A stretch of DNA of 64,000 nucleotides from assembly GCA_022820925.1 (NCBI GenBank), contig JAJEEO010000015.1:1-64000 (forward strand). Direction: 5' to 3'. This document shows positions 867 to 15,722 of the stretch, one piece after another (the stretch's first letter is position 1; each line of letters opens with the position of its first letter). The stretch is from Acidimicrobiia bacterium (lineage in GTDB: Bacteria > Actinomycetota > Acidimicrobiia > Acidimicrobiales > Poriferisodalaceae). The notes under the pieces are model-generated. The model was not told the DNA's origin. It ran no database searches and was given only the letters and a program-made list of their open reading frames with translations. The position numbers and the translations under genes are program-made.

Positions 867-2809
867 TGGCCGCTGAGCTGCCCGCTCGTGACGGCCTCGA
901 CGTGTCGGATGTCGAGGCGTACCTGGCCTCGCATCGACAGAAGGACCTGCTGCGCCTGCTGACCTGCGGCAGCGTCGACGACGGCAAGTCGACGCTGATC
1001 GGGCGGCTGCTGCACGACTCGCAGCTGATCTACGAGGACGTGCTCGCCAGCCTCGAAGCAGACTCGGCGGCCCACGGATCGGCGGGCGAGGGGGTCGACC
1101 TGGCGCTGCTCATGGACGGCCTGCGTGCCGAGCGCGAGCAGGGCATCACCATCGATGTGGCCTACCGCTACTTCTCCACGGCCCGCCGCACGTTCATCAT
1201 CGCCGACACGCCGGGGCACCCCCAGTACACCCGCAACATGGCGACGGGTGCGTCGACCTGCGATCTGGCGGTCATCCTGATCGACGCCCGCCACGGCGTG
1301 CTGGCACAGACCAAGCGCCACAGCTACATCGCCAGCCTGCTGGGCATCCGTCGGGTCGTCGTGGCGGTCAACAAGATGGATCTCGTCGGCTGGTCACAGG
1401 ATCGGTTCACCGAGATCTGCGAGGACTATCGCTCGTTCGCCAAGCCGCTCGGGTTCGGCGAGCCGTGCTTCCTGCCGATGTCCGCGCTGGCAGGCGACAA
1501 CGTCGTCGACGCCGGCGACAACCTGGGGTGGTTCGACGGTCCGCCACTGCTGGAGCACCTCGAGACGGTGGACATCGATGTCGGCGTCGACCTAGAGCAT
1601 TTCCGCATGCCGGTGCAGCTGGTCTCCCGGCCCGATGCGGACTTCCGCGGGTACGCGGGAACGATCGCGTCAGGAATCCTCCGGCCCGGTGACGAGGTGG
1701 TGGCACTGCCGTCGGGGCTCAGCTCGACGGTGGAGCGGATTGCGACCTTCGACGGCGACCTCGACGTAGCGGGGCCGGGGCGGGCGGTCACGGTGACGCT
1801 CGCCGACGACATTGACGTCAGCCGGGGCGACCTCCTGGTGACCCCGGGAGGCGAGCCGCAGCGAGCGCACGACCTCGACGCCATGGTGGTGTGGATGTCC
1901 GAAACCGGCGCCGAGCCCGGCAGCTCGTACCTGCTGCAGACGGCCAACACGGTTTCCAATTGCGCCATCCGGAGCCTCCGGTACCGGATCGACATCAATA
2001 CCGGCGCACACGAGCAGGCGCCGGGGCTCGGGCTGAACGACATCGGTCACTGTGTCATCACGTCAGACCGGGAGCTCGCGTTCGACCCCTACAGCGCCAA
2101 CCGGGCGACTGGATCGTTCGTGCTCGTCGACCGGCTCACCAACGCGACGGTGGCAGCAGGAATGATCATTGGAGCGGCGTCTGCGTGGGACCGCACGCCT
2201 GATGCGGCACTGGTTCGCCAGCGCTCGGAGATCAGCGATGCGGAACGGGCCATCCGTTTCGGCCAGCAGCCGTGCACCATCCTGCTGACGGGGCTCACGG
2301 CGGCCGGCAAGTCCACGCTTGCCACGGCGCTTGAGCGGGAGCTGTTCGACCGGGGCAAGGTGTCGATCCGTCTCGACGGCGAGAACGTTCGCATGGGCAT
2401 CTCCCGTGACCTGGGATTCAGCACCCAGGAACGCTCGGAGAACCTGCGACGGGTGTCGGAGGTGGCACGGCTTGTGAACGGCCAGGGACTGATTGCGATC
2501 GCTGCAATGGTGGCCCCCGACGGTGACGTGCGGCAGCGTGCCCGTGACCTCGTGGGTGCCGATCGCTACGTCGAGGTTTTCGTGGACACGCCCATCGAGG
2601 TCTGCCGCGAGCGTGACCCACACGGCCTCTATGCCATGGCCGACAGCGGCGAGATCCCCAGCTTCCCCGGTGTCTCCGCCGATTTCGACCGACCGACTGA
2701 GGCTGACCTGCGCGTCGACACCTCGACCCAAGACGTCGACGAGTGCATCGACGCCATCGTGCGCATGCTGACAGAGCGCGGTTTTCTGCGCGGCCCGAGC
2801 ACGCCATGA
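866..2809 (+). CDS. cysNC: Sulfate adenylyltransferase subunit 1 / adenylylsulfate kinase fusion
   Basis: GTPase motifs ([31 protein letters not shown]) plus C-terminal APS kinase P-loop GLTAAGKST; overlaps cysD stop. Confidence 0.95.
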
Positions 2810-3429
2810 GTGCGGGTGCCGGGAGCGAACCGGTCTCGCGCAACATCGTGCGCGCCGAAGGACAGGTCACCGGCGCCGACCGTGAGGCACACTTCGGCCA
2901 CCGTGCAGTGACGGTGTGGTTCACCGGGCTGTCCGGCAGCGGGAAGTCCACCCTCGCATTCGCCCTGGAAGCAGCGCTGCTGGAACGCGGCGTTGCCGCC
3001 TACGTACTCGACGGCGACAACGTGCGCTTCGGGCTCAACCGCGACCTCGGCTTCTCGCCCGAAGACCGCACGGAGAACATCCGCCGCATCGGCGAGGTGT
3101 GCCGCCTGTTCCAAGACGCCGGCGTCGTCGTACTGACGGCGTTCATCTCGCCATACGTGGCCGACCGCGAGCAAGTACGTGCCATCCACCCCGAAGGCGC
3201 CTTCATCGAGGTGTTCGTCGACACCCCGCTCGAAGTCTGCGAGACCCGCGACCCCAAGGGCCTCTACGTCAAGGCTCGCGCCGGCGAGATCCCCGACTTC
3301 AGCGGCATCTCCGCCCCCTACGAACCGCCGCCATCACCCGAGATCACCATCGACACCACCCAACCCCTACACGACTGCATAACCCAACTCCTCGCCACAC
3401 TCCCTCTGTCGGAACCAGGGAGCGGTTAG
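2806..3429 (+). CDS. cysC: Adenylylsulfate kinase (second, stand-alone copy)
   Basis: [45 protein letters not shown] overlap with cysNC stop. Confidence 0.93.
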
Positions 3430-4178
3430 TCCCAGGTGCCGAACTGGAAGGCTTCGGTGGGAAAGGCTTGCCAGTGCTGCCAGACCTGAGGGTCGCCGTC
3501 GGTGATCTCGACACCGACGTGGGGGCGGCCCCAGAGTGCGAGGAGCACTTGGATTGGCGGGCCTTCGATCGCCGCCGATGCAGGCGACTCGGACTCGGGC
3601 AGAGGCTCGATGGACACGCTGCCGACTTCGCCGCTGGCATCGACGAGCCGGGCGGCGAGCCCGCCGGGATCACGCTCGAGGACGCGGCGCATCGCTTGGA
3701 GGAAGAACTGGCAGGTGTAGTCGGCGGCGTCGAGTGCTTGTGCCGGCGTCATGGAGTGCTCATGGCTCAGGGCTGCCTCGACGTCAAGGCGGTGCATGCC
3801 GAGCTCAGAAGCAGCATGCCAGGCCCACAACCGCGGATTGCCCTCGCCGCCGGTCATCGAGAAATAGCAGCGCCGGTCGAGGTCGTGGGTGAGCTGATCG
3901 ATGGCTGAGTGGGCCCATGCTGCGAGTTCTGCCGTAGAGGTTCCGGCCGGCTTGCGGCCGGCGCGCTCGTAACCCCGTGCTCGGGACTCGGGGTCGTTGG
4001 GCGTCGAGGTGATCATCTCTTCCCACGCGATCCCGACTCGGCCGATGTGCGACGCCGCGTTGTGCACCGTCCAGCCAGGACAGTTCAAGACCGGCACCGC
4101 TTGTTCCTCGTCGCTGCGGCCGCAGATGTAGTCGATGGCGGACCGCGCCGCGGCGATTCGCTCCGAATGATCAAGCAT
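3426..4178 (-). CDS. Maleylpyruvate isomerase N-terminal (mycothiol-dependent, DinB-like) family protein
   Basis: [24 protein letters not shown], typical MDMPI N-terminal segment. Confidence 0.75.
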
Positions 4179-5073
4179 CGTCCAATCCCAACGTTCGCAT
4201 GCGTTCCTCGTAATCGGCCCAGCCCACCAATCCCCGGGCTTCGTCGAAGCTGACCCGGTACTCCCCCGCTTCGCCTCTGGCCGCCAGTTGGCTGGCCGAT
4301 TCCTGCATCGCGGCGATGCCGCTGAGCAGCAGCGTCACCGGATAGATCACGAGCGAGTAGCCCATCTCGCCCAGCGAGCCGGGATCCAGCCACGGTGTTT
4401 GGCCGTCCTCCACCAAGTTCGCTGTCTTGTGGCCCGGCACCTCTGCGCAGTAGCGCTCCATCTGCTCGACGGTTTCCGGCGCCTCGAGGAACGTGACGTC
4501 GGCGCCGGCGTCTGCAAACGCAGCGGCACGCCAGAGCGCTTCGTCAAAGCCATCGGTCGCACAGGCGTCGGTGCGGGCCATGATCAAGATGTCGAGGCTG
4601 TGTTCCTGCCGGACCCGGACACACGCCTGGATGCGCTGGATCGCCTCGTTGCGGTCCACCACTTCCTTGCCCATCGTGTGACCGCAGCGCTTCGGCCACA
4701 CCTGGTCCTCGATCATCACGCAGGCAAGCCCCGCTTGCGCGCAGCCCAGCAGCGTTCGCTCCGCGTTGACGGGATTGCCGTAACCCGTATCGGCATCGCC
4801 GATGATCGGAAGCGACGTCGCAGCGCACACGCTGCGGGCCTGATCGATCATCTCGCCGTAGCTGAGCAGGCCCACATCAGGCAGTCCGAGCCTGGCAGCA
4901 GCGACCGAGAATCCTCCGAGGAAGCCGGCCCCGAACCCTGCCGCTTCCACCAGTCGTGCCGACAGTCCGTCGAAACACCCCGGTGCCTGCACGACCGAAC
5001 CGGACTCCGACGCCGAGTGAAGCAGCGCCTGCAGTCCCTGCGCACCGCGGCCATGATTCGGGAACAGCGACAC
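4171..5073 (-). CDS. Isocitrate lyase/PEP mutase family protein
   Basis: GCFDGLSARLVEAAGFGAGFLGGFSVAAARLGLPDVG, GDADTGYGN, MIEDQVWPKRCGH. Confidence 0.88.
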   Translation of the reverse strand: MSLFPNHGRGAQGLQALLHSASESGSVVQAPGCFDGLSARLVEAAGFGAGFLGGFSVAAARLGLPDVGLLSYGEMIDQARSVCAATSLPIIGDADTGYGNPVNAERTLLGCAQAGLACVMIEDQVWPKRCGHTMGKEVVDRNEAIQRIQACVRVRQEHSLDILIMARTDACATDGFDEALWRAAAFADAGADVTFLEAPETVEQMERYCAEVPGHKTANLVEDGQTPWLDPGSLGEMGYSLVIYPVTLLLSGIAAMQESASQLAARGEAGEYRVSFDEARGLVGWADYEERMRTLGLDDA

Positions 5074-5277
5074 TGGGGACCAGCTCCTTCCGATGAGCGG
5101 CGCGGATATGCCCGCCGCAGTCTGTCAGGCTTGCGGGCGATGACGAAGTGGTCGGGCGGCCACGCCGTGGCGACTCTGCAATCGCTCCCGGCTACGGTGA
5201 CCGGCGTCGATCGGGCGAGCGGTCAAGAAGTGCTCCGGTCGACCTCGCAGGGTTGAGACGAACCGCTGGGGCACTAC

Positions 5278-6456
5278 ATGGCCAACTCCCCGATGAGCTC
5301 TGCGGCGCTGATCGATGCTGCGAACGAGCTCGCTCCGTTGCTGCGCGAGACCGCCCGCGAGGCGGAACTGGCCCGACGCCCGCTCGACCGGGTGATCGAC
5401 GCAGTCCGAGACAGCGGACTCTTCGCACTCATGGTTCCCAGGGCGTACGGCGGCCACGAAGCCGACCTCGACACCTATTTCGAGGTCACCCTGACGCTGT
5501 CTCGCGCCGACGCCTCGATGGGTTGGCTGATCTCGTTCTACATCGAGCACAACTTCTGGATGTGCGGCTATCCGGAGAGCTTCCAGAAGGAAGTCTTCGC
5601 CGAGCGCCAGTTCATCCTGGCCCCCGCCACGCTGAACGCAGGGGGCGGCAGGGCGACCCCCACCGAGGGCGGCTACCGGCTCGACGGTCAGTGGCAATGG
5701 GGAACCGGCATCGTCCATGCCGACTGGGTGCTGGTGGGCGCGATGGTCGACGAAGGCGGTGGGCGGGTGCTGCCGAACTTCTTCGCGGTGCCGCCCGAGG
5801 ACGTCGAGCCAGTCGACACCTGGTACGTGATGGGCCTGTGCGGCACCGGTTCGTGGGACATCCGCGTCGACGACGTCTTCGTGCCCGCCGATCGGGTCGT
5901 CTCGATGGTCGGACTGATGAACGCAGCCGGCGAGTCCACCCGGGTTCACGCAGGCGAGCTGTACCGCACGCCGCTGATTCCCGTGCTCGGCTTCGCTGCG
6001 GGGCTGCCCATGCTCGGCGCGGCCCAGATGGCGCTGGAGGAATACCGCTCCCAGACCAAGGCCAAGATCGCTGCGAAGCAGACCGCGATCGGCGGGCCCG
6101 AACGCGACCAGGGCAAGCCGGCGGTCGCCGCGAGGGCAGCGCTGTCGATCGACGCGGCCGAGCTCATGTTCCGCGACGTGCTCGCCGACGTGATGACCCA
6201 GCGCAACAGCGCATCCTTCGAGACCCGCAGCATCTGGCTGTCGCGACTGACCCACGCCGTCCATATGTGCCGTGACGCCGTGCGGGACATCTGCTCGGTC
6301 ACCGGCGCCGGCGGCAGCCGGCTGGACAACCCCATCCAGCGGGCGTTACGCGACATCTCGACCGGTTCCAACCACCTCATCTTCGACCGCGAGGTCCGCT
6401 ACGCCGACTACGGGCGCCTCTTGCTCGACCAGCCCACCAGCAGATTCCTGGTGTGA
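5278..6456 (+). CDS. Acyl-CoA dehydrogenase-like flavin-dependent oxidoreductase
   Basis: MVPRAYGGHEADLDTYFEVTLTLSRADASMGWLISFYIEHN; group D-like ACAD architecture. Confidence 0.82.
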   Translation: MANSPMSSAALIDAANELAPLLRETAREAELARRPLDRVIDAVRDSGLFALMVPRAYGGHEADLDTYFEVTLTLSRADASMGWLISFYIEHNFWMCGYPESFQKEVFAERQFILAPATLNAGGGRATPTEGGYRLDGQWQWGTGIVHADWVLVGAMVDEGGGRVLPNFFAVPPEDVEPVDTWYVMGLCGTGSWDIRVDDVFVPADRVVSMVGLMNAAGESTRVHAGELYRTPLIPVLGFAAGLPMLGAAQMALEEYRSQTKAKIAAKQTAIGGPERDQGKPAVAARAALSIDAAELMFRDVLADVMTQRNSASFETRSIWLSRLTHAVHMCRDAVRDICSVTGAGGSRLDNPIQRALRDISTGSNHLIFDREVRYADYGRLLLDQPTSRFLV

Positions 6457-6581
6457 GCCACCCGTCGGCCGCCCGGGGCCACGGGCGCCACTGCTGACCG
6501 CTCGGCCACGCATGGACAGTGCCCGGCGCGGTCTGTCAGGCTTGCGCCGACGGGAGCACGAGCGACCGAGGGGGACATTCC

Positions 6582-6998
6582 ATGTCGAACATCAACGACG
6601 TAGCCGCAGCGTTCTTCGATGCGTGCGAGACCGGCCAGGGCTGGGACGCCTGCGCCCAGTACTGCGCCGACGACGCAACGTTCGCTGCGCAGTCCGAGGC
6701 CATCGGCGATCTGACCGATCTCCGCTCGTACGCCGAGTGGATGAAGGGCACCTTGATGATCCTGCCCGACGCCACCTACGACCTGAAGTCGTGGGCCGTC
6801 GACAGCGAGCGCAGCAGCGTCCTGGCCTATGCCGTGTTCAACGGCACCCACACCGGCGAGGGCGGACCGGTGCCTCCGACTGGCAAGTCGGTCAGCTCGG
6901 ACTACGTGTACGACATGCGCTTCGAGGGCGACAAGATTTCCCACATGACCAAGATCTGGCACTCGGGCATCGCACTGCAGCAGCTCGGCTGGGCCTGA
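6582..6998 (+). CDS. SnoaL-like / NTF2-fold protein
   Basis: MSNINDVAAAFFDACETGQGWDACAQYCADDATF. Confidence 0.7.
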   Translation: MSNINDVAAAFFDACETGQGWDACAQYCADDATFAAQSEAIGDLTDLRSYAEWMKGTLMILPDATYDLKSWAVDSERSSVLAYAVFNGTHTGEGGPVPPTGKSVSSDYVYDMRFEGDKISHMTKIWHSGIALQQLGWA

Positions 6999-7087
6999 GC
7001 CCCGCCGGGCGACACAGCCGCCGCCTACAGGAACAGCTAGAGCATGGGAAGGTGCGCAGCACCGAGGGTCGTTGACGAGGAGACGCC

Positions 7088-7891
7088 GTGCCGGAAACCA
7101 GTTCGCCTTCGGGAAAGCTGATCGTCGAGAGGGACGGCCCGGTCACGACCGTGATCCTCAACCGTCCCGAGGTGCACAACGCCCTCGACCGGGAGATGTC
7201 CCAGGAGCTGAACGACGCTGTCCGTGAGATCAACGTAGACCGGGAGTGCCGGGTGATGGTGCTCACCGGTGCGGGCCACACGTTCTGCGCCGGCGACGAC
7301 ATCAAGGAGTTCAACGACTGGACGCCCGAGGACCCCCTCTGGCAGGCACGGCTCTACCAGGAGACGGTCTCGCTGATGGAGGACCTGATCCCGGTCACCG
7401 TCGCCGTCGTCGACGGGGTGTGCACCGGCGGCGGTCTCGAGCTGACCTTGGCTGCAGATTTCGTGCTGGCGACGCCGCGTTCTCGGTGGGGCATGCCGGA
7501 GATCAACTGGGACATCACCCCGGGATGGGGCGGCACCAGCAAGCTGGCCAAGCATGTGGGTCGTCGCAGGGCCAAGGAATGGAATCTGCTCGGCACGCTG
7601 TTCAGCGCCGAGAAGGCCGAGCGTCACAACCTGGTCAACCGACTCGTCGAGCCTGACGACATGGACGCGGAGCTGGACCGGCTGATCGAGATCATCCTGA
7701 GCAAGCACCCCCAGGCGATGCAGGTGACGAAGTACTTCGTCGACAGGGGTGCCGACCTCGACTACCAGAACGTGATGGCCTTCGAGGGAGCGCCGCAACT
7801 CGTGCCCTTCGGGGAGGGCACCCGAGCCTTCGTCGAGCGCGACAGCCGCAACGACCGCCGCCGGCTACTCAACGACTTCTGGTTCGACTGA
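7088..7891 (+). CDS. Enoyl-CoA hydratase/isomerase family protein
   Basis: NRPEVHNALDREM, GAGHTFCAGDDIKEF, GVCTGGGLELTLAADF. Confidence 0.93.
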   Translation: MPETSSPSGKLIVERDGPVTTVILNRPEVHNALDREMSQELNDAVREINVDRECRVMVLTGAGHTFCAGDDIKEFNDWTPEDPLWQARLYQETVSLMEDLIPVTVAVVDGVCTGGGLELTLAADFVLATPRSRWGMPEINWDITPGWGGTSKLAKHVGRRRAKEWNLLGTLFSAEKAERHNLVNRLVEPDDMDAELDRLIEIILSKHPQAMQVTKYFVDRGADLDYQNVMAFEGAPQLVPFGEGTRAFVERDSRNDRRRLLNDFWFD

Positions 7892-7955
7892 ACCGAGGCG
7901 AGCGAACCCAGCAGCAGCCTCGGCCGCGGTTGCCGATTCGGCGGATACTGAAGGT

Positions 7956-9194
7956 TCAGTGGCGGTGGCGGTGGTCGCCGTGGGAGTGGTCGTAGCGGTC
8001 GTGGTGCTGGCGCAGCAGGTCGGCCCCGTAGTCGCCGCCGTTGGGCGTGCGGACCAGCGTGTGGACGTGGTTGCGTGAGGGCACCAGGTTGTCGAACACC
8101 ACGCCCGGATGGTGGTCGAATTCGATCAGCACCACGGGGTTCTGCACCCGGTAGTAGAAGGGCCCGTCGTCGCCGGTCGCGCCCATCCATGAGAACCAAG
8201 TCTCGTCGAGGTGGTGAGCGACCTCGTCCATCCTGACCTGTGCGTGGCCGTCACGGGTCCATCCGACGTAGGTCGCCATGAGATTGAGCAGGATGCGCCG
8301 CTGGGCGTCGGACAGGTCGGTCGCTGCGACGCCCTCATTGGGAATGACGGCGTTGTCGAGGAAGGCGCCGCCCTGCATGCGGCCGTCGAATGGGTGCTGC
8401 AGCTCCGGCGGCAGGTCGTCGGGGTGGATCGAGGGCCGGAGGATGGCGCGGCCCTGCTGTTCGGCGTCGAGCGAGCGGATCAAGTCGAGCCCCGATCGTT
8501 CCTCGGCGGTGAAGACCTGGGTACCGGCATAAGGGCCGTCGTGGACATGGCAGGGCTCGGCTCCCATGAACGTCGGCGTCATCACCAGCTGATCGCCGAC
8601 GACTGCGCAGTTGACCACCAGGTGATGACCGTCGAGCTGCCAGCCCCAGGGCTCGTCGGGCCCGGGCTCGCCGAAGACGGTCACGAAGTACGGCCACTCC
8701 CCGTACTCGTCGGGGCTGCCGGAGATCTCGGCGATCAGCTCGTTCAGCCGCATGATGTCGCGCGCCTGGCCGTAGCCCCGGGCCGACAGCGTCTCCCGCA
8801 ACAGGTCGAGACCGAGCCGGCGACCGGCCGTGCCGAGCTCTTCGAGCATCACCCCGTGGCGGAAGAAATTCATGTGCACGTTGATCCAGGTGCGCCAGTC
8901 GTCGCTGTCGATGGGCTGGTGGGCGCGCTGGCGCTGCTCGCTCGTCAAGGCGCCGAGGAATGCCTGGGCGGCCTCGACGAGAGGCGCTGTGGACACGCCG
9001 GTCCGCGCGAGACCGAACAGGCCTTGGCGGACCGCGCCGTCGACCGTCACGCCCGTGAACGGCTCGTGGCCGTGCGCGATCCGCTCATCGACGAATGGCA
9101 CGAGCGGCGGAGCGATGTCGGTGACGCGTGAGCGTGCACTCATCGGAGGCATGTGACGCACCCCGAATTCGGTCCAGTGGCTCATGGATGCCAT
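7956..9194 (-). CDS. DUF3500 family protein
   Basis: GWQLDGHHLVVNCAVVGDQLVMTPTFMGAEP and HVHTLVRTPNGGDYG. Confidence 0.75.
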   Translation of the reverse strand: MASMSHWTEFGVRHMPPMSARSRVTDIAPPLVPFVDERIAHGHEPFTGVTVDGAVRQGLFGLARTGVSTAPLVEAAQAFLGALTSEQRQRAHQPIDSDDWRTWINVHMNFFRHGVMLEELGTAGRRLGLDLLRETLSARGYGQARDIMRLNELIAEISGSPDEYGEWPYFVTVFGEPGPDEPWGWQLDGHHLVVNCAVVGDQLVMTPTFMGAEPCHVHDGPYAGTQVFTAEERSGLDLIRSLDAEQQGRAILRPSIHPDDLPPELQHPFDGRMQGGAFLDNAVIPNEGVAATDLSDAQRRILLNLMATYVGWTRDGHAQVRMDEVAHHLDETWFSWMGATGDDGPFYYRVQNPVVLIEFDHHPGVVFDNLVPSRNHVHTLVRTPNGGDYGADLLRQHHDRYDHSHGDHRHRH

Positions 9195-9326
9195 CCTTTC
9201 AGGGCCAAGACGCCGGTGCGTTCAACCGCACTCGCATCGGTCAGCGGCGGCGAGCGTCGTGCGCTTCACTGAGGGGGCTCGCTTCGCACGACCCGTGCGA
9301 CTGCCCTGAACCGACAGCGAGGTGCC

Positions 9327-9740
9327 ATGCCTGCAATGCAGCCGACTGCCGACCAGTTCCGCGCCTTCCGCGATGACCCCCACGACGGGCCCATCGCGCA
9401 GGTCAACCTGCTGAAGTTCCGGGTCAAGGCCGCCTACGGGCCCGATGAGCCCGAGCACGCCAACGACGAGTCCGGCGTCGCCGCCTACCAGCGTTACGTC
9501 GATGCCTTCCGGGCCGCCGCAGCCGAGGTCGGCGGGAGCTGCCTGCTCTACGGCCACGCCGAGCGCTATTTCATCGGCCAGGGCGACTGGGACGCCGTGC
9601 TGATCATGCACTTCCCCAACCGGGCTGCGTTCATCGCGACCCTGAACCATGCCGACTACGCCGAGATGCACCGCCACCGCGCGGCCGGCCTGCTCTGCCA
9701 AGACCTGCTGACGACACAACCGGCCGTAGCAGCCGCCTAG
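9327..9740 (+). CDS. DUF1330-like dimeric alpha/beta barrel protein
   Basis: QVNLLKFR...YQRYVDAFRAAAAEVGGSCLLYGHAERYFIGQGDWDAVLIMHFPNRAAF. Confidence 0.75.
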   Translation: MPAMQPTADQFRAFRDDPHDGPIAQVNLLKFRVKAAYGPDEPEHANDESGVAAYQRYVDAFRAAAAEVGGSCLLYGHAERYFIGQGDWDAVLIMHFPNRAAFIATLNHADYAEMHRHRAAGLLCQDLLTTQPAVAAA

Positions 9741-9757
9741 CGCGTGCGAGAGCTGAC

Positions 9758-9880
9758 GTGAGTACGACCGCAAAACTCGTGCTAATGGCCCCGCCTGGGG
9801 CGCCGGCTGCAGGCGCCGAAGGCGACGCTGCCGCTGGGCAGCCAGGAATGCCCAGCTGCTGGCGCGGATCCCCTAGCTAA
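9758..9880 (+). pseudogene. Truncated duplicate of the 5' end of the D-2-hydroxyacid dehydrogenase at 15792
   Basis: GTG ORF VSTTAKLVLMAPPGAPAAGAEG... vs MSTTARFVLMAPPGAPAVPS...; 23 nt identical (9785-9807 = 15819-15841); stops after 40 codons. Confidence 0.7.
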
Positions 9881-10995
9881 TCGCTGCCGGGATCGCGGGG
9901 ACGATGGCGTCGTGCGACCGATCCGGCGATGGTGCGCAGCGGCGTCGCCGAGATCTCGACGACGGCACCGACAAGCTGAGCGGGTGCGCGGGCAGCTTCG
10001 ATGAGTCCACGGCCGAGCACCCCGCCAGCGCTGCGGCCGGAAGGTCGGCGCATCCATCCCAGCGCCACGAAGACGCCAAGCGACACGAGCGCGATGAGGG
10101 CCATGATCACGAGGACGACGATCCACCCGTCGTTGCGACCGATAAGCGGCAAATCCACGAAGTTCATGCCGAAGAACCCCGCGACCAGCGACAGCGGCAG
10201 CATGATCGCTGCGTAGATCGTGAGCACTCGGGTGACCTCGGTGGCCTGGCGCGCCTCGGCACCGCGGTACGCGTCCAGGCTCTCCGCCAGTGCGGTTCGG
10301 GCAGCCTCCACGCCCTGTGCGGCGCGTGATGCCGTGTCGAAGACATCGGAGAAGCGCCGTCGTCCGGCTTCGGTCACGACTGGGGATGAGGTGCGGCGCA
10401 GGATGTCGAGGGCTTCGCGCTGGGGGTGCACCGATTTGCGGAGCGCAGCCAGGTCGGCACGAACGGCGGTGATCTCGGCGAGGAACCCGGGAGCCGCCTT
10501 CAACGCAAGCTCGTTCAGCTCCTCGTTGCGATTGTCGAACACGTCGAGCACCGAAGTCAGGCGGCGGGTGGCGACATCGGCCAGCCGTGCCAGCGCTTCA
10601 TCGGGTCCGCCGCTCGCGAGCTCAGGCCGGCGTGAAGCTCCGTTCCACATGGCCTCGATGGAACGCGAGCGCGAGCCGTGGATCGTGACCAGGCAGCGCT
10701 TCGACAGGAAGCTGGCGATTTCGTAGCTCTCGATGCGCTCATCGCTCAGCGCGTGCAGCACGACATGCACTGTTTCGCCGAAGTCGTCGACCTTGGGAAG
10801 ATCGGTATCGGCGATTGCGTCGCGCACTGCCATGGCGTCGAGACCGAATCCGTCGGCGAACTCCAAGATGCGCTCGGTGTCGTCGGGGTCTGCGGTGATG
10901 TCGATCCATGCCCAGCCCTCGTTCGGCATCGCGTGGGGCTGCTCCAAGGGCTGCGCGACATCCTCCACTCCGAATTGGAGCGCCCGCAGGTTCAT
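9877..10995 (-). CDS. corA: CorA family Mg2+/Co2+ transporter
   Basis: C-terminal TM segment with GMN motif: LVAGFFGMNFVDLPLIG. Confidence 0.9.
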   Translation of the reverse strand: MNLRALQFGVEDVAQPLEQPHAMPNEGWAWIDITADPDDTERILEFADGFGLDAMAVRDAIADTDLPKVDDFGETVHVVLHALSDERIESYEIASFLSKRCLVTIHGSRSRSIEAMWNGASRRPELASGGPDEALARLADVATRRLTSVLDVFDNRNEELNELALKAAPGFLAEITAVRADLAALRKSVHPQREALDILRRTSSPVVTEAGRRRFSDVFDTASRAAQGVEAARTALAESLDAYRGAEARQATEVTRVLTIYAAIMLPLSLVAGFFGMNFVDLPLIGRNDGWIVVLVIMALIALVSLGVFVALGWMRRPSGRSAGGVLGRGLIEAARAPAQLVGAVVEISATPLRTIAGSVARRHRPRDPGSD

Positions 10996-11156
10996 GGCTC
11001 AGGCGCTCTCTCGATCACACAATCACTGTGCCACACGAACCTCCCGCCCCTGCTCGAACCGGGCGTCGGACATCACAGATCGCGGGGAAGATGCCATCCC
11101 TGTGCCCGCCCCGGGGCCGCGAAGACCGAAGCACTCACACACCTAAGGTCTCGAAT

Positions 11157-13310
11157 ATGAGAATCGCCGTCGTCTACAACCGCGACAGCCGCAATGTCAT
11201 CAACCTGTTCGGCATGCCGAACCAGGAGAAGATCGGCCTGAGAACGATCAAGCGCCTCAGCGATGCGTTGCGAGCCGGCGGCCACCAGGTCACGGCCCTC
11301 GAAGCCGACAAGGAGCTGATCTCCCAACTCGAGTCGTTCATGCCGCGCGTGGTCAAGGGCGAGCGCCCCGGCATGGTCTTCAACGTCTCCTACGGGCTGC
11401 AGGGACAGGCGCGCTACACCCACGTGCCCAGCATTTTGGAGATGATTGGCATCCCCTATGTGGCGTCTGGTCCGCTCGGGCATTCGCTGGCCCTCGACAA
11501 GGTCGTCACCAAGATGATCCTTCGCCAGCACGACATTCCCACACCCGATTTCGTAGTGCTCGAGACGCCCGAGTCGCCGGTTCCCGACGACCTTCGCTAC
11601 CCGATGATCGTCAAGCCCAAGAACGAGGCGGTGTCGTTCGGCCTTGCCGTGGTCGACGACGAGCAGGCACTGCGGGAATCCGCTGAGGTCATCTTCGAGC
11701 GGTTTCGCCAGCCGGTGCTTGCCGAGCAGTTCATCGAGGGCCGCGAGGTGAACGTCGGGATCCTGGGCAACGCCCCGCCCGAAGCCTTCCCGCCGGTGAT
11801 GCTGAGCTTTGGAACCGACGGCCCGCAGATCTACACCTACGAGGACAAGACCGGGCGCAGCGGGCGGACCATCGAGCCGCTGTGCCCCGCCCCGATCCCC
11901 GACGAACTCGCCCAGCACACCCAGGACATCGCTGTGCGGGCTTTCTCGGCCCTGGGGCTGTACGACTGCGCCCGTGTCGACCTGCGGGTGGACGACGACG
12001 ACAACGCCTATGTGCTCGAGGTCAACAGCCTGCCCAGCCTCGGCGAGCACGGCTCGTACCTCGTCGGCGCCGCCCATGTCGGGCTCGACTTCGCTGCGTT
12101 CGTGAATCGCCTCGTCGAGGTGGCGAGCGCCCGTTACTTCGGCACCCCCCAGCCCCCGCCGGTCGACGCGAAGACCGCCGATCCCTCCGAGCGGGTCTTC
12201 CAGTACGTCACCCAGCGCCGCGACCAGATGGAGCGATCGCTGCAGCAATGGGTGGAGCTGCCGAGCCGGACCGACGACCCGCTCGGCCTCGCACGGGCCG
12301 CCGACCGAGCCGGGCGGATCTTCGCCGACATCGGCATGCGGCCAGTGCCCGACCTCACCGACGAACCCGAGGCCTACATGTGGGAGACCGCCCGCGGCTT
12401 CGACGGCGGGACGCTGCTGATCGCCCACCTCGACGTGCCCGCCACCGGCGCCGCGCTGCGCCAGGGCTTCCGTCGCGACCCCGAGTGGCTCTACGGCGAG
12501 GGCATCGGCCGGTCGCGCGGCTCGCTGGTGATGCTCGAATACGCCCTGCGTTCCCTGCGCAGCATCCGCGCCCTGAGACGGGTTCCCCTCGGGGTGCTGC
12601 TGTACGCCGACGAGGGACAGGACGCCATCCAGAGCCACGCCCTCATCAGGCGGGCCGCCGAGCGCGCCGATCACGTGCTTGTCTGCCGCCCCGGCACGCT
12701 CGACAACGGCATCGTCACCCAGCGTCGAGGCAGCCGCCGCTACGAGCTCACCGTCGAGGGGGCGCGACTGAGCCCGGGACAAGTAGGGCGACGACGCACC
12801 GTGGCCAACTGGACGTTCGACAAGCTCGTCGCCATCGGCAAGCTGAACGCCCCGAACAAGCGGCTCTCGATCGCCGCACTCGACGTGCACACCGAACGGC
12901 ACGCGATGTTCGTGCCGCATCGCGTCGAGGCGTCGCTGATCATGTCGTATCTCGACCCTGCCCACGCAGACGAAGCCGAGCGGTCGATGCGATCGATCCT
13001 CGGGCGTGGCGGGCCGACGTGGCATCTCACCTTGCTCACCGACCGGCCGCCTATGGTTGACCGCCCGGCGAACCAGCAGGTCGTCGAGGCCCTGGAGAGC
13101 GCAGCCGCCACATGGGACATCCCGCTCGATCACGAGTCGTCAGGTTGGCCGTCGGTGGCGGGGCTCGTTCCCGAGCCGGCGTCCGTCGTCTGCGGGGTGG
13201 GCCCGGTGACACGGGACCGCGGCACGCCCGACGAGGCGGTGCAGCGCATCAGCCTCGTGCAGCGCACGCTGCTGCTCGCGGAGTACCTGGTCGGCCGGGC
13301 GAAGCGATGA
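11157..13310 (+). CDS. ATP-grasp (D-Ala-D-Ala ligase-like) protein fused to a degenerate M20-like peptidase domain
   Basis: ATP-grasp: YPMIVKPKNEAVSFG, EGREVNVGILG, DARVDLRVDDDDNAYVLEVNSLPSLGEHGSY-like C-terminus; M20-like: LIAHLDVPATG...GIGRSRGSLVMLEYAL; ATG at 11157 rather than ORF start 10908. Confidence 0.85.
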   Translation: MRIAVVYNRDSRNVINLFGMPNQEKIGLRTIKRLSDALRAGGHQVTALEADKELISQLESFMPRVVKGERPGMVFNVSYGLQGQARYTHVPSILEMIGIPYVASGPLGHSLALDKVVTKMILRQHDIPTPDFVVLETPESPVPDDLRYPMIVKPKNEAVSFGLAVVDDEQALRESAEVIFERFRQPVLAEQFIEGREVNVGILGNAPPEAFPPVMLSFGTDGPQIYTYEDKTGRSGRTIEPLCPAPIPDELAQHTQDIAVRAFSALGLYDCARVDLRVDDDDNAYVLEVNSLPSLGEHGSYLVGAAHVGLDFAAFVNRLVEVASARYFGTPQPPPVDAKTADPSERVFQYVTQRRDQMERSLQQWVELPSRTDDPLGLARAADRAGRIFADIGMRPVPDLTDEPEAYMWETARGFDGGTLLIAHLDVPATGAALRQGFRRDPEWLYGEGIGRSRGSLVMLEYALRSLRSIRALRRVPLGVLLYADEGQDAIQSHALIRRAAERADHVLVCRPGTLDNGIVTQRRGSRRYELTVEGARLSPGQVGRRRTVANWTFDKLVAIGKLNAPNKRLSIAALDVHTERHAMFVPHRVEASLIMSYLDPAHADEAERSMRSILGRGGPTWHLTLLTDRPPMVDRPANQQVVEALESAAATWDIPLDHESSGWPSVAGLVPEPASVVCGVGPVTRDRGTPDEAVQRISLVQRTLLLAEYLVGRAKR

Positions 13311-13314
13311 ACGG

Positions 13315-15030
13315 GTGAACGAGCACAGCGCCGACCGCGACGCCGAGCACACCACGGTGCCATCGCCGGGGCCGTCTGAGCCGCCGGTGGCCGACCGCCC
13401 CCGACGGCGGCCCAGCCGGCAGGTCAACACCGAGCTGCTCGAGCTCACCGACACGCGCATCCACGAGCCGCAGCGCATCGCCGCGTCCGAACACGGCATG
13501 GTTGCCACTGCGCACTATTCCGCCACCGCAGCGGGCGTCCAGATGCTCGAGCGCGGCGGCAACGCCATCGATGCCGCCGTCGCCGCCGCGCTCGCGTTGG
13601 GCGTGTGCGAGCCGGCGGCATCGGGACTCGGCGGCCAGACCATGATGGTCCTCCATCACAGCGCCACCGGCCGCACCATCGCCTTGGACGGCTCATCGAG
13701 AGCCCCCCACCGAGCGCTCGTCGAGAGCTTCGACAATCTCCGAGCGGATACCCGCAGGGGCCATCTCGCGACGACAGTGCCGAGCTCACCCGCCGTCTAC
13801 GCCCACGCGCTCGAGAACTACGGCACCCTCAAGCCCTCGACGGTGCTGGAACCCGCGATCGCGCTGGCCGAAGACGGCTACGAAGTCAGCCTCTTGCAGT
13901 ACCGGCTCTCACGCCGGGAGCGCAAGCACCTCGCGGCGCATTCGGCACGGCAGTTCTTCCTCCAGGACGGCCGCCGGGTGTACCGGGCCGGCTCGAGGAT
14001 CCTCCAGCCGGTGCTGGCCCGAACTCTGCGGCGCCTGAGCGATCACGGCTTCGAGGACTTCTACCTCGGCGAGATCGCCCGCCTGATCCATGACGACATG
14101 GAGGCCAATGGCGGGCTCGTCTTCGCAGACGACCTGGCGCAGATCCCCCACCCGATCGAGCGGCGACCGCTGTCGGTCAGCTTCGGACGCGACCGCGTGA
14201 TGACGATGCCGCTCCCCGGGGCCGGGCGCACGCTGATCGAGATGCTCAACATCCACCAGAGCCTCCCCCGCGAGCTCCAGGACATCGACTCGCCCCAGGG
14301 GGCGGTCTGCCTCGCCCAGACCATCCAGCAGGCGCTCATCGACCGAAACGACCGACCTCGCGACCCCAACCTGTACTCGCCGGCCTCCGACAAGCAGATG
14401 CTCAACCGCACCTACGCCCGGCGGCTTGCACGCGACATGGCACGGCGCTTCGGCCACGGTGAGACCACGCACTTGTCGGTCATGGACGCTCACGGCAACG
14501 TCGTCGCGCTGACGCAGTCGATCGAGAACGTGTACGGCTCGTGCGCTGCGTCGCCCGAACTCGGGTTTCTCTACAACAACTACATGAACGCGTTCGAGAG
14601 CGAAGACGTGTCCCATCCGTACTACCTGCGGCCCAATGCGGTCCCGTGGGCAAGCGTCGCGCCGTCGATCGTGTTCCGCTCCAAGGAGCCGTGGCTGGCG
14701 ATCGGCTCGCCCGGCAGCGAGCGCATCCCCCCGACGATCCTGCAGGTGCTGCTGCGCCTGCGACGGGCGACTCCGATGTCGGCCGTCGACGCGCCCCGCA
14801 TCCACTGCTCCATCGACGGAGTCGTCTCGGTAGAGGCCTCGCGCATCGCGACCGACGTGCTGCAGGCGCTCGCCGACGCGGGCTTCGAGATCAACCAGCG
14901 AGAGCCCTACTCGTTCTACATGGGCTGCGTCCAGCTCGTGATGAGGGACGGCGATCGGCTCATCGGCGTCGCCGACCCCCGGCGGGACGGTGCCGCCGCC
15001 GGCCCGATCGCTGCGCCGCACTCGACGTGA
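13315..15030 (+). CDS. Gamma-glutamyltranspeptidase family protein
   Basis: GGNAIDAAVAAALALGVCEPAASGLGG; nucleophile region ETTHLSVMDAHGNVVALTQSIENVYGS. Confidence 0.92.
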   Translation: MNEHSADRDAEHTTVPSPGPSEPPVADRPRRRPSRQVNTELLELTDTRIHEPQRIAASEHGMVATAHYSATAAGVQMLERGGNAIDAAVAAALALGVCEPAASGLGGQTMMVLHHSATGRTIALDGSSRAPHRALVESFDNLRADTRRGHLATTVPSSPAVYAHALENYGTLKPSTVLEPAIALAEDGYEVSLLQYRLSRRERKHLAAHSARQFFLQDGRRVYRAGSRILQPVLARTLRRLSDHGFEDFYLGEIARLIHDDMEANGGLVFADDLAQIPHPIERRPLSVSFGRDRVMTMPLPGAGRTLIEMLNIHQSLPRELQDIDSPQGAVCLAQTIQQALIDRNDRPRDPNLYSPASDKQMLNRTYARRLARDMARRFGHGETTHLSVMDAHGNVVALTQSIENVYGSCAASPELGFLYNNYMNAFESEDVSHPYYLRPNAVPWASVAPSIVFRSKEPWLAIGSPGSERIPPTILQVLLRLRRATPMSAVDAPRIHCSIDGVVSVEASRIATDVLQALADAGFEINQREPYSFYMGCVQLVMRDGDRLIGVADPRRDGAAAGPIAAPHST

Positions 15031-15722
15031 GCCGGCTTCCGATCGTCATCTCGGTGCCGCACGCCGGTTTGCGCGTGCCCGAGGAAGTCGCCGACAAGTG
15101 CGTGCTCTCGCCGCAGGAGATCGCCGAGGACGGAGACGGCGGGGCCGCAGAGATCTACTCGATCGCCGACGAGGTGGGTGCATTCGTCACCACCGATGTC
15201 GCCCGCGCCATCGTCGACATGAACCGGGCACGTGACGACCGGCGCCGCGACGGCGTCGTCAAGACCCACACCTGCTGGGACGTTCCCGTGTACCGCCTGC
15301 CGCTCGCGACACCCGAGATCGAGCAACTGCTGGATACCTATCACGCCCCCTACCACGAGCGGCTCACAGCCTTGGGGGCCAGCGGCCAGTGGCCGCTCGG
15401 CATCGACTGCCACACCATGGCCGCCAGCGGCCCTCCCGTCGGTCCCGACCCGGGCAGCGAACGCCCGTGGCTCTGCCTGAGCAACGGCGAGGGAACCTGC
15501 CCGCAGGAGTGGATCGAAGGCTTGGCGGCATGCTTCGCAGAGCTCATCGAGGGCCCGATCGGCATCAACGACCCGTTCCGTGGCGGCTACATCACGAGGT
15601 CCCATGCGGCCGAAATGCCATGGATACAACTCGAGCTGTCCAGAGCCCCGTTCCTGTCGCACGACGAGAAGCGGTCGATGGTCCTCTCGGCGTTCGACGC
15701 CTGGATCACGACGCATCTCTAG
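15027..15722 (+). CDS. N-formylglutamate amidohydrolase family protein
   Basis: VISVPHAGLRVPEEV, DMNRARDDRR, GIDCHTMA; GTG start overlapping the GGT stop. Confidence 0.85.
   Translation: MSRLPIVISVPHAGLRVPEEVADKCVLSPQEIAEDGDGGAAEIYSIADEVGAFVTTDVARAIVDMNRARDDRRRDGVVKTHTCWDVPVYRLPLATPEIEQLLDTYHAPYHERLTALGASGQWPLGIDCHTMAASGPPVGPDPGSERPWLCLSNGEGTCPQEWIEGLAACFAELIEGPIGINDPFRGGYITRSHAAEMPWIQLELSRAPFLSHDEKRSMVLSAFDAWITTHL

Follow-up and report, generated by a model that had tools for sequence, protein, structure and literature searches.

The window analysed here, a stretch of 64,000 nucleotides from an Acidimicrobiia genome of 3.28 Mb (G000), harbors three adjacent genes, named A, B and C in the following, which constitute one tightly coupled unit encoding three soluble proteins. 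The balance tips slightly towards A-B-C being a dedicated, translationally coupled and horizontally spread operon for the formation of an amide-linked amino acid (or beta-amino acid) conjugate. The features of the unit are:

11157..13310 (+), gene A, ATG start: ATP-grasp amide ligase (residues ~1-330) and degenerate M20-fold domain (~345-717), assigned with Pfam/NCBIfam, an alignment of 17 relatives, AlphaFold and Foldseek
12189..13307 (+), M20-like domain of gene A, characterised by alignment to 1cg2 and family alignments
13315..15030 (+), gene B, GTG start: GGT-family Ntn hydrolase, nucleophile Thr384
15027..15722 (+), gene C, GTG start: N-formylglutamate amidohydrolase-family (PF05013) zinc hydrolase, motifs intact

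Genes A and B are separated by 4 nt, and the stop codon of B and the start codon of C overlap by 4 nt; both arrangements recur in relatives. The tight packing of three genes between 11157 and 15722, with a short gap and a stop/start overlap, had been noted in the initial annotation and was confirmed in all details.

Conservation and distribution of the unit

A scan of 84,980 species genomes for A yielded 31 loci, to which a phylum-wise sampling added more. Loci were testable (n = 33) if the contig was long enough around A, and B and C were sought in the surrounding DNA with HMMs. All three genes were found together in 31 of the 33 testable loci, which cover at least four phyla and two divergent clades. 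The unit is present in Acidimicrobiia (Actinomycetota), Acidobacteriota, Alphaproteobacteria and one gammaproteobacterium, and additionally in the phylum of a Phycisphaerales MAG and in the phylum of locus L020. Across phyla, including the deep clade L071/L074, the genes either lie a few nucleotides apart or overlap by 4 nt, and the unit also persists in loci with a strongly diverged M20 domain. A survey for co-occurrence of the three families had been proposed beforehand as the test that could refute a dedicated unit; given the 31 of 33 loci and the joint presence and absence of the genes, refutation by a non-conserved neighborhood fails. Exceptions are L012, in which C is missing, and L021, in which a kinase-like gene follows A and neither B nor C is present. 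Since B and C were lost separately in these two loci, the three genes need not act strictly in series. The gene order in L014 is A-C-B'-B, including a second GGT.

The pairwise distances of the two domains of A and those of B and C are correlated (r = 0.69-0.88, deep outgroup pair L071/L074 removed), and none of 2000 permutations gave a correlation as high, in keeping with co-inheritance of the genes. Within the genus of the window, A is encoded in five out of 11 genomes (G000, G002, G003, G007 and G009); precisely these genomes, and not one of the remaining six, contain an FGase-family gene. Of 133 genomes in the phylum of L020, five encode a B-type GGT (620-922 bits), every one adjoining A. 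Another GGT (459 bits) lies close to a distantly related ATP-grasp (L081), and no remaining GGT exceeds 297 bits. Copies of A that include the M20 half are rare: approximately 2 in 199 genomes for the phylum to which L012 belongs (Acidobacteria by title), 1 in 247 for that of the window and 2 in 299 for that of the alphaproteobacterium L017, while two further phyla reach 7 in 133 and 7 in 199. Seed genomes and some copies that are only partial contribute to these numbers. The operon is patchily distributed within the genus. The ATP-grasp tree places Acidimicrobiia, Alphaproteobacteria and a first Acidobacteriota pair in a group with 96% support that excludes a second Acidobacteriota pair, a mixture of phyla that suggests transfer between them.

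Two irregular copies were observed. Gene B of L003 contains an in-frame TAG (12320-12322) directly after GETTHL, which is either a sequencing error or the mark of a pseudogene. In G050 (CP070718.1; L026, L028, L070), gene A is broken into three fragments that partly overlap in sequence and lie far apart on the chromosome; a split A in this "complete" Phycisphaerales MAG chromosome suggests a chimeric assembly.

No exporter, uptake system, regulator or precursor gene was found to travel with the unit in the flanks of the relatives surveyed. The initial annotation had listed a divergent corA as the only attached transport or regulatory gene; its negative part holds, and corA turned out to be a neighbor at the genus level only, being near A solely inside the genus of the window and 2.4 kb away in L025. 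Both corA and the D-2-hydroxyacid dehydrogenase gene downstream of C are missing from the flanks of A outside the genus, the latter even in the close relatives L003, L004 and L025, and both were rejected as members of the unit. A scan for genes recurring beyond A-B-C returned only neighbors from the same lineage or spurious overlapping ORFs. PADLOC gave no match to anti-phage defence systems. Full-length A was not found in phage sequences, which contain partial matches to Ddl-like ATP-grasps only, nor was a complete A found on plasmids, where 52 partial ATP-grasp matches were obtained.

Several lineage-restricted gene arrangements are mentioned here for completeness. A small kinase-like gene is located after C in L020 (13420-14157) and L077 (4805-5524 (-)), both from one phylum, to which L021, with such a gene after A (2664-3374), belongs as well. 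In the Acidobacteriota loci L012 (3096-9001) and L023 (2432-8800), a Lar_N/DUF362-like gene is found upstream of A, together with genes that resemble HyuA/HyuB by eye, possibly pointing to 5-oxoproline or hydantoin chemistry. The operon adjoins genes for RLAN-RimK, GCS2 and a C39 peptidase in L071. Unusual ATP-grasp architectures, the first three from related ATP-grasps, include an NAD synthase-ATP-grasp fusion (L073, 6842-8635), an ATP-grasp-SET fusion beside a GNAT gene (L072, 6509-7999), a 7TM_transglut-ATP-grasp fusion (L089, 5677-7965) and a GNAT gene with two tandem ATP-grasps (L090, 5317-8102).

Gene A: an ATP-grasp ligase fused to a degenerate M20 domain

Gene A belongs to the ATP-grasp amide ligase superfamily, and amide formation is its predicted reaction. 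Residues 123-322 match Dala_Dala_lig_C in Pfam (1.1e-34), and K153, E190, D275, E288 and N290 are invariant in the alignment of 17 relatives. D-Ala-D-Ala ligases (Ddl) are the top structural matches of the N-terminal half in Foldseek. The scores against the Ddl models (152.3 and 177 bits) are below the cut-offs of TIGR01205 (245.65) and PRK01372 (243), and most relatives encode a separate short Ddl-like ATP-grasp besides A; A therefore differs from the housekeeping Ddl. AlphaFold modelled A with moderate quality (pLDDT 73, pTM 0.53).

The C-terminal half matches Peptidase_M20 at residues 421-711 (2.1e-4 in Pfam), which is sub-threshold by itself and is backed by NCBIfam M20 matches of about 1e-17. 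Carboxypeptidase G2 (CPG2, 1cg2) ranked first in Foldseek (E 3.2e-19, TMt 0.70), followed by a poly-aspartate hydrolase and carnosinases. We take the zinc ligands of CPG2 to be H112, D141, E176, E200 and H385, with Glu175 as catalytic base. H424, D426 and E486 of A correspond to CPG2 positions H112, D114 and Glu175 and are kept. In A and its relatives, D141 is replaced by R, T or S, E176 by G and E200 by R according to the 1cg2 alignment, with H385 lying outside the aligned region; no member, not even the divergent L071 or L074, retains more than two of the five zinc ligands. As metal ligands are missing in all relatives, the M20 domain is regarded as a conserved pseudo-peptidase, and its degenerate fold makes a functional peptidase unlikely. 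Of the proposed ATP-grasp fused to a peptidase-like domain, the fusion and the M20 fold could be verified, while the wording "peptidase-like" could not be upheld. The M20 half strongly conserves the blocks SR, DEG, RRG, PHR and RPP as well as a C-terminal SVAGLVP...CG.GP block, from which we infer that a binding or structural role may have been retained.

Gene B: a GGT-family protein with an altered binding site

The classification of B as a GGT-fold Ntn enzyme with the TTHxSV motif proved correct. The protein matches G_glu_transpept in Pfam (1.4e-111) and carries TTHLSV at residues 384-389, within a GETTHLSV motif (382-389) that contains the autoprocessing Thr nucleophile and is near-invariant among B proteins. 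In E. coli GGT, R114 and D433 hold the alpha-carboxylate and the alpha-amino group of the gamma-glutamyl moiety. The position of R114 is occupied by Ser in B (DGSSRA; Thr in L024) and that of D433 almost always by Ala (LYNNYMxAF), both residues being replaced in every member; further changes are Q430 to Tyr and S462 to Ala. A canonical GGT from a related genome (L091), used as control, retains R114 and D433. A signal peptide or hydrophobic N-terminus was not found in any B and is present in this control. B also scores below the TIGR00066 cut-off. The loss of the gamma-glutamyl-binding Arg and Asp and the lack of a signal peptide make canonical glutathione chemistry unlikely, and B most likely is a cytoplasmic Ntn hydrolase or transferase with a specificity different from that of GGT. 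Several other uncharacterised GGT paralogues are devoid of R114 and D433 as well, so that the loss does not indicate a single specific substrate.

Gene C: an FGase-family protein distinct from HutG

C is an NFGAH-family hydrolase, as previously assigned (FGase, PF05013, 4.2e-40, 138.7 bits). The motifs PHAG, DxD (DGD), NR and DCHTM are invariant or nearly so in relatives. The AlphaFold model (pLDDT 88) matches the NFGAH structure 2q7s (TM 0.79) and also 2odf; a poly-gamma-glutamate hydrolase, PghL, resembles the same two structures (PMC6506827). No FGase-family protein other than C is encoded in G000, a genome that has urocanase and a hut cluster. An identity of C as HutG was contradicted by a score of 66 bits compared to a cut-off of 278.75, by G048, which encodes A-B-C and lacks urocanase, by the FGase-free congeners and by the location outside the hut cluster. 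This cluster (L105, G000:C9:12000-28000, 3885-11119) comprises hutH, an IclR regulator, hutU, a hutF-like amidohydrolase gene and hutI and contains no FGase; a peptide-deformylase-family gene within it (8014-8580) might encode a non-orthologous N-formylglutamate deformylase.

A related gene cluster in rhizobia

All ten plasmid matches listed out of the 52 to the ATP-grasp of A are rhizobial. The closest plasmid relatives by identity, among the matches listed, are located in one rhizobial cluster (44.5% for the ATP-grasp of A, 40.6% for B). This cluster on the Bradyrhizobium plasmid pBb323S2b (L111, 6528-10047) encodes a KamA-like radical SAM protein, annotated as lysine 2,3-aminomutase, a GGT, a 7TM_transglut protein and an ATP-grasp. 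Judging by gene order and annotation, bll8232 to bll8229 of strain USDA110 probably are the counterparts of this cluster, with bll8229 as the ATP-grasp. In USDA110, bll8232, bll8231 and bll8230 are among the genes differentially expressed in soybean nodule development (PMC8632152), and bll8229 was detected in bacteroid proteomics (PMC6320959). Further rhizobial plasmids (L112 to L115, around 9001) carry short ATP-grasp relatives of A; a radical SAM gene similar to that of L111 is found in L114, and panD is close by in L112 and L114.

Proposed function and alternatives

For the formation of a conjugate by A-B-C, the following course of reactions is proposed. A would use ATP to turn the carboxylate of one amino acid into an acyl phosphate and would then couple it to an amine, a step deduced from the fold and the conserved ATP-grasp residues. 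The M20 domain, devoid of the catalytic zinc pair, probably holds or positions the acceptor, or dimerises the enzyme. B would cleave itself at Thr384 and, in the cytoplasm, remove or transfer an acyl group other than the canonical free L-gamma-glutamyl, and C, as an intact zinc amidohydrolase, might strip an N-formyl or N-acyl group or trim a glutamyl-type amide. The overall logic may be to conjugate first and to trim or deprotect afterwards, with chemistry, order and direction all being predictions. A dedicated pathway for a glutamyl or acyl-amino-acid conjugate had been suggested in the initial annotation; the dedicated unit is borne out by the conserved neighborhood, while "glutamyl" is doubtful, as B lacks both residues that hold the gamma-glutamyl moiety in canonical GGTs. 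The missing exporter, regulator and precursor gene, which are often expected with a secreted metabolite, argue against biosynthesis.

Unlikely, with some points in its favor, is a recycling or catabolic role, in which an acylated or glutamyl compound, taken up from the environment or a host, is broken down by B and C, with A re-ligating or trapping one of the products. Hydrolases account for two of the three proteins, the M20 and NFGAH families act mainly in catabolism, and the close relatives are sponge MAGs, presumably from a setting rich in host-derived amino compounds. However, A surpasses the other two proteins in conservation and is the sole one retained when they are lost (L021), no uptake system is encoded beside the unit, and the M20 domain, the one clearly degradative-looking part of A, has no metal site. 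Tagging of proteins or peptides in the manner of amidoligases, with A adding an amino acid and B and C removing it, appears rather unlikely. It would fit the RLAN-RimK, GCS2 and C39 peptidase genes next to the operon in L071, the related ATP-grasps fused to 7TM_transglut (L089) or adjoining it in rhizobia, and the small kinase-like gene after the operon (L020, L077) or after A (L021). Yet none of these associations extends beyond a single lineage, a conserved small substrate protein does not accompany the operon, and the ATP-grasp is nearest to D-Ala-D-Ala ligases rather than to RimK, TTL or Pup ligase.

Ordinary metabolism, i.e. a gamma-glutamyl cycle with A as GshB or Ddl and B as GGT, or histidine degradation with C as HutG, is very improbable. 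The family names point in this direction, as does the fact that C is the only FGase in a genome with urocanase and an FGase-less hut cluster. These points are outweighed by the low scores of A (152 vs 246 bits for Ddl) and C (66 vs 279 bits for HutG), the absence of the gamma-glutamyl-binding Arg and Asp and of a signal peptide in B, the six congeneric genomes without any FGase, the urocanase-free G048 with A-B-C, and the peptide-deformylase-family gene in the hut cluster itself. The glutathione route and a Ddl identity of A were rejected on the basis of model scores and residues, and the earlier view that A-B-C does not serve ordinary glutathione metabolism stands. That three unrelated genes were transferred together by accident is hardly credible: the operon does look horizontally mobile, being patchy in the genus and mixed in phyla in the tree, but the gene order and the minimal spacing persist from phylum to phylum, down to the deep clade L071/L074, the A, B and C types are present or absent jointly, and the same ATP-grasp and GGT types are paired independently in rhizobia.

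Habitat and significance

The nearest named relatives of the window genome are Acidimicrobiia MAGs of the jk18x... and p16x... series. The jk18x series was obtained from Caribbean Ircinia sponges (PMC9531527), which makes a sponge-associated origin of the window genome likely; the source bacterium is a probable sponge symbiont. It may be speculated, as a distinctly doubtful extension, that A-B-C and the rhizobial cluster produce kindred amide metabolites not described so far, which might contain a beta-amino acid and would aid life with eukaryotic hosts (sponges and legumes), the dead M20 domain serving as acceptor-binding domain of the ligase.

A-B-C is a small, portable and deeply conserved operon of uncultured and host-associated bacteria, whose three enzyme families can be named with confidence. 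Routine annotation misnames both the GGT subfamily and the FGase subfamily that the operon defines, and gene A supplies a ligase with a fused M20 pseudoenzyme. As the unit consists of only three genes for soluble proteins, heterologous expression offers a direct way to look for its product, and the link to a nodule-expressed rhizobial cluster provides a cultivable and genetically tractable entry point.

Comparison with known systems

The pairing of an ATP-grasp ligase with hydrolases is of a known kind. Iyer et al. reportedly predicted amidoligase operons in 2009, in which ATP-grasp ligases are linked with peptidases of unrelated folds; such operons and A-B-C have in common a conserved neighborhood of an ATP-grasp and unrelated hydrolases. 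A description of the A-B-C trio was not found in the literature searched, a search that did not extend to this 2009 survey.

On the level of the single proteins, Ddl and A have the ATP-grasp fold and the nucleotide- and Mg-binding residues in common, whereas only A possesses a fused M20 domain, and the N-T-x-P-G of Ddl is N-S-L-P-S in A. With carboxypeptidase G2 and the M20 metallopeptidases, A shares the fold and a weak sequence similarity but not the two-zinc site. The Ntn fold, the Thr nucleophile and TTHxSV are common to gamma-glutamyltransferase (T03) and B, while the equivalents of R114, D433, Q430 and S462 and the signal peptide are missing in B. C belongs to the same PF05013 family as HutG and has the same fold, in contrast to which it attains neither the equivalog score nor a linkage to hut genes. 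The closest parallel on plasmids, the rhizobial L111 cluster, encodes a GGT resembling B (DGHSRAP, GDTTHLSV...LGFLYNNY) and differs from A-B-C in having neither M20 nor FGase and in containing a radical-SAM aminomutase-like gene and a 7TM protein instead.
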